Assembly (NCBI GenBank): GCA_028823485.1
Contig: JAPKBG010000004.1
Coordinates: 1-64,000, forward strand
Direction: 5' to 3'
From: Methylophilaceae bacterium
GTDB taxonomy: Bacteria; Pseudomonadota; Gammaproteobacteria; Burkholderiales; Methylophilaceae
DNA: 64,000 nucleotides
Of this stretch, positions 11,638 through 25,851 are shown piece after piece. Below the pieces are notes generated by a model. The model did no database searches and was not told the origin of the DNA. It saw nothing but the letters and a program-made list of their open reading frames with translations. Made by a program: the position numbers and the translations under genes. How positions within the stretch are numbered: position 1 is the first letter of the stretch; the number at the start of each line of letters is the position of its first letter.

Positions 11638-11713
11638 GTGGCTGTAGCTCAGTTGGTAGAGTCCCGGATTGTGATTCCGGTTGTCGTGGGTTCGAGCCCC
11701 ATCAGCCACCCCA
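11638..11713 (+). tRNA. tRNA-His (anticodon GTG)
   Basis: Acceptor GTGGCTG pairs with CAGCCAC, the anticodon loop is TTGTGAT (GTG, histidine), the T loop is TTCGAGC, and CCA is encoded. The extra 5' G typical of tRNA-His is present at 11637, opposite C73. Its 3' end is repeated in degraded form at 13909-13953, which marks it as the attachment site of an integrated element. Confidence 0.95.
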
Positions 11714-11812
11714 TTATCTTCGTTTAAGATTCAACCCTTTAGCAAGTCTCATAGTCTATCTATAGTCGCTAATAATGCTGTTTGTCGTTCTCTTGTCCTT
11801 TTGGAGAAGTGT

Positions 11813-11959
11813 CTGGCTAGTATTCGTAAGCGCTCTAACGCATGGCAAGTAAGAATTCAACGTAGTGGTATCCCTTCTCGGTTAAGGATGAATAGAAGAT
11901 TATTGCTATTGCTAGTAGGGCTTATTGTAAGTACCTCATCGTTCCCCCTTTTTTGCTAA
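11813..11959 (+). pseudogene. Tyrosine integrase N-terminal remnant
   Basis: Translation of this stretch gives LASIRKRSNAWQVRIQRSG, very close to the usual opening of phage-type tyrosine integrases (MASIRKR...WQ.RI.RKG). GGAG lies six bases before, exactly where a ribosome binding site should be, but the codon is CTG rather than ATG. Similarity fades after about 25 codons and the ORF ends at 11959, so only the N-terminal arm-binding part survives. Its place beside the tRNA-His 3' end is where an integrase gene would sit. Identification rests on a short motif. Confidence 0.55.
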
Positions 11960-11968
11960 CCCATCCCA

Positions 11969-12844
11969 TTAGCTTTTCTCATTAAGGAAGTAATCTGGAC
12001 GCCAAGACAAGCCTCCAAAGATGGTTTTAATTCTGTCTTGATTATTCCTACATTTCTTGAAATCGCCCCATAAATAGCCAAACTCAATAAATATAATTTT
12101 AATCGGATTGTTGGTGTTAATTTCGTTTACTAATCCATAACTAACCTTTTTATTCTCACGCTCAAAAGTTCCAAAGAGCTTGTCCCAAATCATCATAACC
12201 CCTCCATAATTCTTATCCAGATATTGTTTATTTGATCCGTGATGTACCCTGTGAACAGATGGCGTATTAAATACCTCGTCTAACCATCCCAGCTTTCCTA
12301 TGTATTCAGTATGAATCCAATGCTGATACTGAGCAATGAGTACCAATGCCACAAGTGCCTGAAATGGATTAAAACCTATCAAAATCATTGGGACTAGAAA
12401 AATCCACTCAAAGAAACCTTCGACTAAGCTTAGTCGGAATCCGACTGTCAGGTTGTAATCTACTGAACTGTGATGAACATTATGGCTCGCCCACAGAACT
12501 CGGTGTTTATGCTCAAATCGATGCATCCAGTAGTATGTAAAATCAGCTACCAGTATCGCCAAAACCCAAGTCCACCCAGTCATTTTAATATGTAAGGGCG
12601 TAATAATAAAAAAAGGCAATAAAGCAACAAATGCGATAGATGCGAATGCAGTTTTTTCTACTACTTGATGCGTAAGGAAAATTACACAATTTGCTACAGT
12701 GTCTTTCCACCTACGCTCTTTTTCCGTAAGTATATCAAGAATTATTTCACAACCAGTGATGCTTAGATTGGTGATAAACAGTGACGCTACTACCAACATA
12801 ATTGGATGAGTTTCGAAAAGGGATGCCAAGTATTCAATTAGCAT
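11969..12844 (-). CDS. Sterol desaturase / fatty acid hydroxylase family protein
   Basis: A membrane-bound di-iron oxygenase of the fatty acid hydroxylase superfamily. The three histidine boxes are visible: HRFEH, HNVHH and, further on, HRVHH. Several hydrophobic segments surround them. The substrate is not recognisable; sterol, carotenoid and lipid hydroxylases share this fold. The ORF track opens at 12901, but ATG at 12844 has CAGGG seven bases upstream and gives 291 residues, the family norm. It is divergent from the TetR gene at 13044 and probably controlled by it. It lies inside the tRNA-His islet and is AT-richer than flanking genes, in line with transfer. Confidence 0.85.
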   Translation of the reverse strand: MLIEYLASLFETHPIMLVVASLFITNLSITGCEIILDILTEKERRWKDTVANCVIFLTHQVVEKTAFASIAFVALLPFFIITPLHIKMTGWTWVLAILVADFTYYWMHRFEHKHRVLWASHNVHHSSVDYNLTVGFRLSLVEGFFEWIFLVPMILIGFNPFQALVALVLIAQYQHWIHTEYIGKLGWLDEVFNTPSVHRVHHGSNKQYLDKNYGGVMMIWDKLFGTFERENKKVSYGLVNEINTNNPIKIIFIEFGYLWGDFKKCRNNQDRIKTIFGGLSWRPDYFLNEKS

Positions 12845-12971
12845 AAGGAAACCCTGATTCATTAAAAGCCAGACACAACGTCGGTAATTTGTACATTCCA
12901 ACTAAACTAGGAAAGCTGAGATGCCAGCGTTTTTGTACTTGCATTGCCATAAAAGACCCTGTAAATAAATA

Positions 12972-13000
12972 TTGATGAGCGAACGATTGTTCATTATAAT
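12972..13000 (+). promoter_or_regulatory. tetR promoter with TetR-type operator in the spacer
   Basis: TTGATG at 12972-12977 and TATAAT at 12995-13000 are 17 bases apart. The spacer contains GAACGATTGTTC (12981-12992), a 12-bp palindrome with one mismatched pair, of the GAACGATCGTTC type bound by AcrR/TetR repressors. Bound repressor would block this promoter and could also affect the divergent hydroxylase gene. Confidence 0.65.
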
Positions 13001-13043
13001 ATAGGCTTCTTAATAATCACACAAGTTACAAAGTGAAACACTT

Positions 13044-13640
13044 ATGAATAAACGAGAAAAGGGTAAGGCGGAACGGCGTAACCTAATAGTAAACACGGCT
13101 ATTGAATGCTTTATTAGGAATGGTATTCATAAAACAGGTATACGTGAAATAGCAAAGGAGGCGAATGTTAGCTTAGGAAATATGTACAATCATTTTTCCA
13201 GCAAACATGAACTTATTGCTGAAATTGCAGCTGTTGACAAAAGGGACCTTGAACGTATCATCAAAGAGATTAATAGCAATGAAGACCCTGCCACTGCAAT
13301 AAGTAAACTCATTGATAACTACCTTGATTATGTATCTGTATTTGAGAATGCTGTTCTGACAATCGATATTATTGCGGAGTCAATAAGGAATCCCATTGTT
13401 GCAGAACAGTTTGAATCAAATCGACGAAACCTTTGTGATGCAGTTACTGCAACCATCAAAAAGGGTATATCGGAGGGTGTAATGAGAGATCAAATCAGTA
13501 TTGATGATACAGTCAAATTATTGTTAGATGCTATAGAAGGCCTGGGTCTGCGTAATGGTCTAGCTCAGATAAAACCATCAACAGTAGAAAGAAAAACACT
13601 TCAAGAAATGATATTCAGAATGATATTACTAGGCCCATAA
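13044..13640 (+). CDS. TetR family transcriptional regulator
   Basis: A 198-residue TetR/AcrR repressor. The N-terminal helix-turn-helix reads IREIAKEANVSLGNMYNHFSSKHELI, with the family hallmark (Y/M)NHF.SK. The C-terminal ligand-binding domain is helical and not assignable to a known ligand. It is divergent from the fatty acid hydroxylase gene, and a palindromic operator overlaps its own promoter, so autoregulation and control of the neighbour are likely. It lies inside the tRNA-His islet. Confidence 0.9.
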   Translation: MNKREKGKAERRNLIVNTAIECFIRNGIHKTGIREIAKEANVSLGNMYNHFSSKHELIAEIAAVDKRDLERIIKEINSNEDPATAISKLIDNYLDYVSVFENAVLTIDIIAESIRNPIVAEQFESNRRNLCDAVTATIKKGISEGVMRDQISIDDTVKLLLDAIEGLGLRNGLAQIKPSTVERKTLQEMIFRMILLGP

Positions 13641-13784
13641 TAGATACGCAACGTGACTACCTTCTGGCTTGAAACAAACATTTACTGAGAAATTTATAAG
13701 CCACATAGTTGATTCTTTATCTAAAATAGCAATCAATAATCACGATATTGATTGGCCGTTCCGTTATGGTGTTGCACAGTTTGT

Positions 13785-13855
13785 TGTCTAATAAAAAAAT
13801 AACAACAAGCCTAGGTAATGAGTGTGTAGGGCAGGCTCAACGAATTTATTAGACA
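13785..13855. repeat. 71-bp element bounded by 11-bp inverted repeats
   Basis: TGTCTAATAAA (13785-13795) and TTTATTAGACA (13845-13855) are perfect inverted repeats, and AGCCT/AGGCT pairs again inside. A 40-codon open stretch from 13669 ends with its TAA inside the left arm. The arrangement of a stop codon within GTCTAAT and a matching ATTAGAC on the far side recalls integron attC sites, but the core differs from the attC consensus (AAC/GTT) by one base. Otherwise 13641-14092 holds no intact gene that I can see. Confidence 0.45.
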
Positions 13856-13908
13856 GCCAGTTTTAATTTTTACATATAAATCATGATTTTATAATGTTTT
13901 AGCTGCAG

Positions 13909-13953
13909 GGTTGTGATTCCGGTTGTAGGGGGTTCGAGCCCTCAGCCACCCCA
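13909..13953 (+). pseudogene. Partial tRNA-His copy (attachment-site scar)
   Basis: TTGTGATTCCGGTTGT matches tRNA-His from its anticodon loop onward, and the T-loop GGGTTCGAGCCC and acceptor CAGCCACCCCA follow with a 2-base deletion and small changes. The 5' half is absent. It is not a functional tRNA and marks the far end of the integrated islet. Confidence 0.85.
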
Positions 13954-14092
13954 TTTTCTATTCTAAATAGTAGAATCGAAACATGAGCTTACAAATATCA
14001 AGCGAACTTAGTCATAAAATCAGACAAGCACCCCTCAACAGTTTTTTAATACGCTGCTTTAGTTAACTGGACTAACCCAGTCTTTTTGAACG

Positions 14093-14254
14093 TTAAACAA
14101 CCTCTAATAGCAGCTCTTCTGTATTGTAAGCTTCATTCGCTTCCCGTTCGATATAAGCCGTTGCATATGTTGCTTGGTGCGCTGAGAAATGGTCATCATC
14201 TGTTCCGATTGCATCATCTGGTGTTTGTAGATCTAAAGACTGCAAGTTCGTCAT
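14093..14254 (-). CDS. Small hypothetical protein (53 aa)
   Basis: An ORF too short for the track. It begins MTNLQSLDLQTPDDAIG and ends in an acidic, alanine-rich stretch (EREANEAYNTEELLLEVV). Composition is protein-like and acidic. It lies 17 bases after the stop of a similar small ORF on the same strand, so the two may have formed an operon. No family is recognised. The opposing plus-strand ORF at 14086-14286 looks like its shadow. Confidence 0.45.
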   Translation of the reverse strand: MTNLQSLDLQTPDDAIGTDDDHFSAHQATYATAYIEREANEAYNTEELLLEVV

Positions 14255-25653: not shown

Positions 25654-25851
25654 GCGCGCATTATAGGTTTAAATGGTACAAACTTAAACAACACTTAAAA
25701 CTGTCACTATTTATGTTTGTGTACAATAGGCATCGTTAGCACAGTGAATAAGGTAGTAAGTGTGTGAGAACACATGGATGAGCCGTCGTTGACCTAGTGT
25801 GACTCTGCCGATATAGATTAGGCGTGCTAACCCTTTTGGCCATTAAACTGG

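Follow-up and report, generated by a model that had tools for sequence, protein, structure and literature searches.

The stretch of DNA analysed here (the window, 64 kb) is the start of contig C3 of a Methylophilaceae genome assembled into 30 contigs (1.64 Mb, 86% complete). Within it, the third gene of a Pro-Arg-His tRNA cluster found with ARAGORN, tRNA-His, borders a 2.2-kb islet (Table 1). The 3' half of the tRNA gene recurs at the far end, and between the two copies lie the 5' stump of a tyrosine integrase gene, an intact gene for a membrane protein of the fatty acid hydroxylase superfamily and, divergent from it, a gene for a TetR-family repressor. The original prediction had described a degraded repeat of the tRNA-His 3' end 2.2 kb downstream, enclosing an integrase-like start, a histidine-box hydroxylase and the hydroxylase's own TetR. 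Its coordinates and its account of the contents are correct; the copy lies 2.24 kb away.

Table 1. Features of the islet and its borders, in window coordinates
Feature	Position	Strand	Basis
tRNA-His(GTG), intact	11638..11713	+	ARAGORN; attachment core (attL side) formed by the 3' half, 11666-11713
Arm-type-like direct repeat TTTGTCGTTCTCTTGTCCTTTT, left (type-2) element	11781..11802	+	TTGTC copies
5' stump of tyrosine integrase, LASIRKRSNAWQVRIQRSGIP	11813..11875	+	tblastn with the intact G019 integrase and the G004 stump
Fatty-acid-hydroxylase-superfamily membrane protein, 291 aa, intact	11969..12844	-	PF04116, E 1.4e-29
Remnant of small ORF, MAMQVQKRWHLSFPSLVGMYKLPTL...	12852..12950	-	Similarity to the L126 61-aa ORF
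Putative tetR promoter TTGATG-17-TATAAT	12972..13000	+	Sequence; TTGATG at 12972, TATAAT at 12995
Putative TetR operator TGAGCGAACGATTGTTCA, 18 bp	12976..12993	+	Matches TGARCG-N6-YGTTCA
TetR-family repressor, 198 aa, divergent from hydroxylase	13044..13640	+	PF00440, E 3.4e-14
Right-end arm-type-like pair TGTCTAATA ... TATTAGACA	13785..13855	+	Signature of type-1 (333-aa integrase) elements
Decayed tRNA-His 3' copy (attR side)	13908..13959	+	Repeat of 11666-11719
Rearrangement breakpoint interval (islet on the left, DUF2147/tRNA-Val/tRNA-Asp block on the right)	13960..14092	.	Synteny with G003, G004, G005 and G000 C1

The two copies differ by four substitutions and one 2-nt deletion in 54 aligned columns, with a longest identical block of 16 nt and a spacing of 2242, then 2240. 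Their local score is 70, whereas 200 dinucleotide shuffles averaged 18 and never exceeded 24; the E value in the whole genome is 7e-11. The repeated part runs from the anticodon stem to 6 nt past the end of the gene, and the 5' half is not repeated. Because only the half from the anticodon arm to the 3' end is present, the distal copy is not a second tRNA gene; the attachment (att) copies of other Methylophilaceae islands begin at about the same anticodon-stem position.

The TetR-hydroxylase cargo

How might the cargo be controlled? The palindrome TGAACG-N6-CGTTCA is found upstream of tetR, in its strict form, in only three of 215 loci (L126, L206 and L067), which belong to unrelated genomes, and the relaxed form has a single match in the 1.64-Mb genome of the window. 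There it occupies the spacer between TTGATG and TATAAT of the putative tetR promoter. TetR control is implied, since distant tetR genes share the palindrome, the genome has a single copy and that copy fills a promoter spacer. Together with the TetR_N domain, the divergent target and the intergenic position of the predicted operator, all as in a TetR-family local repressor, this is good sequence evidence for an autoregulated local repressor and agrees with the prediction that the hydroxylase came with a TetR of its own. We envision that TetR binds the 18-bp operator within its own promoter, between the divergent genes, and that a ligand would release it, so that the cargo most likely acts as an inducible enzyme.

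The hydroxylase matches PF04116 with 103.6 bits against a cutoff of 31. Its best start is ATG 12844, in agreement with a homologue that is 77% identical, and all nine conserved histidines, the eight-histidine motif and a ninth, are present in invariant alignment columns. Members of the fatty acid hydroxylase superfamily act on lipids, and the protein presumably resembles in sequence alkylglycerol monooxygenase (AGMO), the enzyme of tetrahydrobiopterin-dependent ether-lipid cleavage. In AGMO the nine histidines are needed for activity, and one bacterial AGMO relative cyclises prodigiosin (PMC7911779). A lipid-modifying role is the likeliest guess for the islet protein: as a membrane di-iron hydroxylase it would oxidise a membrane-embedded substrate, probably a lipid. 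The ornithine lipid hydroxylase OlsE was considered and rejected (66.7 bits against an NCBIfam equivalog cutoff of 475). Sequence search returned no homologue with a solved structure, and PADLOC gave no match that would point to a defence function.

Where did this cargo come from? The closest hydroxylase, the homologue mentioned above, belongs to the alphaproteobacterial MAG OFTM70 (locus L126); among full-length proteins, those of Flavobacteriaceae and a Saprospiraceae MAG come next, at 59-63% identity. Elsewhere in the 187 family genomes there is no homologue above 40% identity (E 1e-20), and no close relative was found in viral contigs, phages or plasmids. Against the L126 gene, dN is 0.17 and dS is saturated, so that this comparison says nothing about selection since integration; in GC content at third codon positions the cargo genes come close to the host. 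Selection for the enzyme, as had been suggested, is a plausible idea; what the sequence shows is an unbroken ORF that keeps all nine histidines, and an undamaged operator that occurs once in the genome.

In L126, TetR is likewise divergent from the hydroxylase, with a 61-aa ORF before the hydroxylase and a DUF418 protein after it, and the contig holds no tRNA gene within the 8.9 kb examined. The resemblance of the islet to this locus comprises the divergent TetR (41% identical to that at the same position in L126), the conserved 18-bp operator, the hydroxylase and the small ORF, whose remnant in the window is 48% identical to the L126 ORF over 31 aa, a score reached in 0 of 5000 shuffles. The two differ in that the window lacks DUF418, which was not found anywhere in its genome (1.64 Mb, 86% complete), and in that its small ORF is broken. 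With the small ORF broken and DUF418 gone, the cargo is a trimmed copy of a transferable module, acquired horizontally from outside the Methylophilaceae. It had been proposed to search for the hydroxylase-TetR pair elsewhere, and the pair does recur: L126 is the only one of 80 hydroxylase loci in which a clear orthologous TetR adjoins the hydroxylase. The predicted operator and the TetR-hydroxylase-DUF418 module, now named, are directly testable.

A partial version of the module was also seen on pDSM107133_j (NZ_CP085164.1, L206, 1684-3681), a 7.2-kb mobilizable plasmid. It shares with the islet a TetR with the conserved 18-bp operator and the small ORF (61 aa), and differs in carrying DUF418 and no hydroxylase.

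Islet ends and the history of the islet

In the Methylophilaceae, elements have integrated at tRNA-His repeatedly. At least two same-strand copies of its 3' half lie on one contig in 14 of 187 family genomes, and integrase-bearing islands occupy the interval between copies in G006, G167, G190, G197, G203, G204 and G210. Reading these loci distinguishes two island types. In type 1 the integrase, of 333 aa, is encoded on the minus strand; a palindrome of the TATTAGACA or TAGTAGACA kind follows the left core at 93-104 nt, and the right core is preceded, at 127-131 and 62-64 nt, by a TGTCTA.../...TAGACA pair, which is degenerate in G210. In type 2 the integrase is a different one, encoded on the plus strand just 3' of the tRNA; a TTGTCC-like repeat doublet precedes it in G004, G012 and G192, and at the right end TTGTCC repeats stand 79-94 nt before attR (G019, G133, G192).

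The ends of the window islet do not match one another in these terms. On the left, the core and the two TTGTC copies are 113 and 124 nt apart (G192: 112 and 123 nt); 0 such doublets are expected by chance in the window. The doublet is followed by the integrase stump, which has lost its start codon (CTG), is cut after about 21 codons and, over 21 aa, shows 67% identity with the N-terminus of an intact tRNA-His integrase (PF00589) of another Methylophilaceae genome. On the right, the TGTCTAATA/TATTAGACA pair stands 125 and 61 nt before the core, close to the type-1 distances given above, which hold in eight other tRNA-His islets, and no TTGTCC repeat is present. Again 0 are expected by chance in the window, and the exact pair is confined to tRNA-His islets in the 1.49 Mb of loci examined. 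Judging from position and conservation, both sets of end repeats are probably integrase arm sites. The 21-codon stump aside, the islet has no intact integrase, no functional integrase or transfer gene and no detectable trace of the type-1 integrase or of other ORFs and mobility genes of the compared islands; nor was any feature recognised in the 90 bp 3' of the stump or in the 0.14 kb that separate tetR from the right-end sites.

How might such an islet have arisen? We envision a scenario, to which we give a probability of about 0.65, whereby the islet is the collapsed remnant of at least two tRNA-His integrative elements that were fused by deletion, together with the foreign TetR-hydroxylase module. 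A type-2 element, with its integrase gene beside the tRNA, and a type-1 element, with the 333-aa integrase and TATTAGACA arms, would have stood in tandem, and a deletion would then have removed the middle att copy along with both integrases, so that the type-2 left end, the type-1 right end and the TetR-regulated hydroxylase module remained. Tandem accretion followed by deletion is the simplest history because the left and right ends come from different integrase types, and tandem accretion at tRNA-His has a precedent in G195, where three 3' copies follow one another 1067 and 3517 bp apart. No genome examined has the expected predecessor, a tandem array of both elements that includes the hydroxylase module, so accretion and deletion are read from the ends alone. 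The attL and attR copies do not look like the ends of one recombinogenic element, given that the end types differ and the attR core is mutated; as an integrase is lacking too, the islet would no longer be able to excise. If so, the locus displays at the base level a route by which tandem elements fuse by deletion and a regulated foreign enzyme stays behind without mobility genes.

The original prediction had seen here a foreign, site-specifically integrated remnant, and this view is borne out by the tRNA-His att copies, the want of a working integrase and a cargo absent from five congeners. It had also seen one element that shrank, which is probably not the case, as the ends carry the signatures of two integrase types. 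The att copies, the integrase stump and the foreign cargo would all be compatible with a single element at tRNA-His that eroded to 2.2 kb, and G192 offers a comparable islet in which one end type is found throughout, with TTGTCC repeats at both ends. However, the type-2 islets G019, G133 and G192 all keep TTGTCC at the right end, where the window has the type-1 pair instead. Erosion of a single element is therefore already disfavoured, and we regard it as unlikely.

Conceivably, the tRNA-His scar is older and was empty of cargo until the hydroxylase-TetR module came in by illegitimate or homologous recombination, independently of an integrase. G004 keeps just such a bare integrase scar at tRNA-His, the L126 module lies on a contig whose 8.9 kb examined hold no tRNA gene, and the L206 version (TetR, 61-aa ORF and DUF418) travels on a mobilizable plasmid. 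However, G119 and G192 likewise hold a regulator with an effector between their tRNA-His copies, as would be expected if tRNA-His elements carried such cargo, and a later entry seems improbable to us.

The fused-element reading places the islet among known kinds of remnant. A cis-mobilizable element (CIME) is a decayed ICE/IME remnant with attL and attR, and accretion and decay are the accepted origin of CIME tandems (PMC5704250). The islet resembles a CIME in having no integration or transfer genes, att copies at a tRNA 3' end and an accretion-prone site. It differs in that its ends derive from different element types and its attR is mutated, which makes site-specific mobilisation unlikely, and in that no transfer genes of an ICE/IME ancestor are left. 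From its sequence the islet thus appears decayed and CIME-like rather than a working CIME. In the same family, fGI-2 of Ca. Methylopumilus is an additive flexible genomic island with repeats of the last 20 nt of tRNA-Lys and units of 330 bp to 42 kb (PMC10872708). Both share tRNA 3'-end repeats and very small cargo units, whereas the islet lies at tRNA-His, not tRNA-Lys, and has an integrase stump; the word "histidine" is absent from the main text of that paper. Tycheposons, described in Prochlorococcus and also in Methylophilaceae, measure 4-200 kb, and those of Methylophilaceae are linked to tRNA-Met and XerD (PMC10872708). They too are tRNA-linked cargo islands with tyrosine recombinases, but the islet, at 2.2 kb, beside tRNA-His and with its recombinase reduced to a stump, falls outside their definition. 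Decayed tRNA islets are a known kind of remnant; this one is well preserved, and its composite ends, unique operator and intact enzyme make it instructive.

Several other small islets were seen between tRNA-His copies. Contig C33 of G195 (L218) holds two that lack an integrase (1.07 and 3.52 kb) and conserve the type-1 right-end sites, and G202 has one of 3.5 kb, also without an integrase and with the right-end sites conserved. In G119 (L212, G119:C1:66500-70500, 638-2160), a 1.42-kb islet extends from tRNA-His to a clean 3' copy, after which the ancestral moeB-like gene follows; it has no integrase, and its only content is a divergent pair of genes, for a TetR and for a DUF2269 membrane protein. 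The islet of G192 (L217, G192:C11) is built like that of the window, with an integrase 5' stump and a TetR gene divergent from an alpha/beta hydrolase gene, then a TonB-receptor-like gene and the tRNA-His 3' copy. In G133 (L213, G133:C20, 342-5416), a 5.1-kb islet without an integrase carries a single gene, for a 1446-aa RTX/cadherin-like protein.

It is a tentative idea, with G195, G202 and G119 as examples, that the Methylophilaceae harbour a family of integrase-less tRNA-His mini-islets of about 1-5 kb, often with one regulator and one or two effector genes. These would keep their att core and arm sites and depend for mobility on integrases supplied in trans by resident islands, the window locus being a dead hybrid of two such systems. 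The two end signatures mark Methylophilaceae tRNA-His islands, and with them islets that hold cargo alone can be recognised even where no integrase gene is present.

The rearranged right flank

To the left of tRNA-His, the FolD-side gene order is conserved in the congeners G003, G004 and G005 (partly via G001), as far as contigs reach. To its right, these three carry a moeB-like (ThiF-type) gene, genes for an SPFH and an NfeD-like protein, and valS; only 0.5 kb separates tRNA-His from the moeB-like gene in G005, and in G017, of another genus, that gene begins 60 nt past tRNA-His. The family-level empty site is tRNA-His followed by the moeB-like gene. The hydroxylase is absent from all five congeners, with the tRNA-His locus itself read in the three named first. 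As no congener has it and none of the other family genomes carries one above 40% identity, the insertion is, within the set of genomes searched, peculiar to this lineage.

Relatives had been expected to show a single tRNA-His followed directly by the flank at 13956. This was not found in the congeners, where the moeB-like gene follows instead; the expectation fails because the right flank was replaced by a rearrangement, not for want of an insertion. The flank in the window is a block of DUF2147, tRNA-Val and tRNA-Asp, whose homology starts at 14093 (against G002) or 14281 (against G004). This block adjoins an aminotransferase-egtD-egtB block in G004; in G005 it is found next to egtB/egtD genes, some 250 kb away from tRNA-His. 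In the genome of the window (G000), the moeB-to-valS block is found on contig C1, joined to aminotransferase-egtD-egtB via IS3-like remnants. The presence of both novel junctions in the genome argues that the rearrangement is genuine. No IS remnant was found at the islet's own right junction. On C1, IS3-like remnants flank the aminotransferase-egtD-egtB block (L117, G000:C1, 5890-6150 and 9950-10400), the IS3 assignment being by eye.

Because the right flank is unlike the tRNA-His neighbourhood of relatives, one might suspect a misjoin of the islet or the flank in a fragmented assembly. The complementary junction on C1, from the moeB-like gene to aminotransferase-egtD-egtB with the IS3-like remnants between, and the host-like third-position GC of the cargo genes make such a chimera very unlikely. 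That the two similar same-strand sequences stem from a tandem duplication of tRNA-His with decay and no insertion is refuted for practical purposes, as the distal copy has no 5' half and starts, as att copies in other islands do, at the anticodon stem, a type-1 end signature precedes it, and the hydroxylase between the copies is foreign and absent from congeners.

Two minor observations concern the surroundings. In the closest congener, G003, the interval from tRNA-His to the moeB-like gene (L074, G003:C1, 5672-6780) spans 1.1 kb and contains no tRNA-His copy and a rhodanese-like gene. Further along the window, 25734-25832 is a Methylophilales-1 small RNA (RF03011), which supports the assignment to the Methylophilales.
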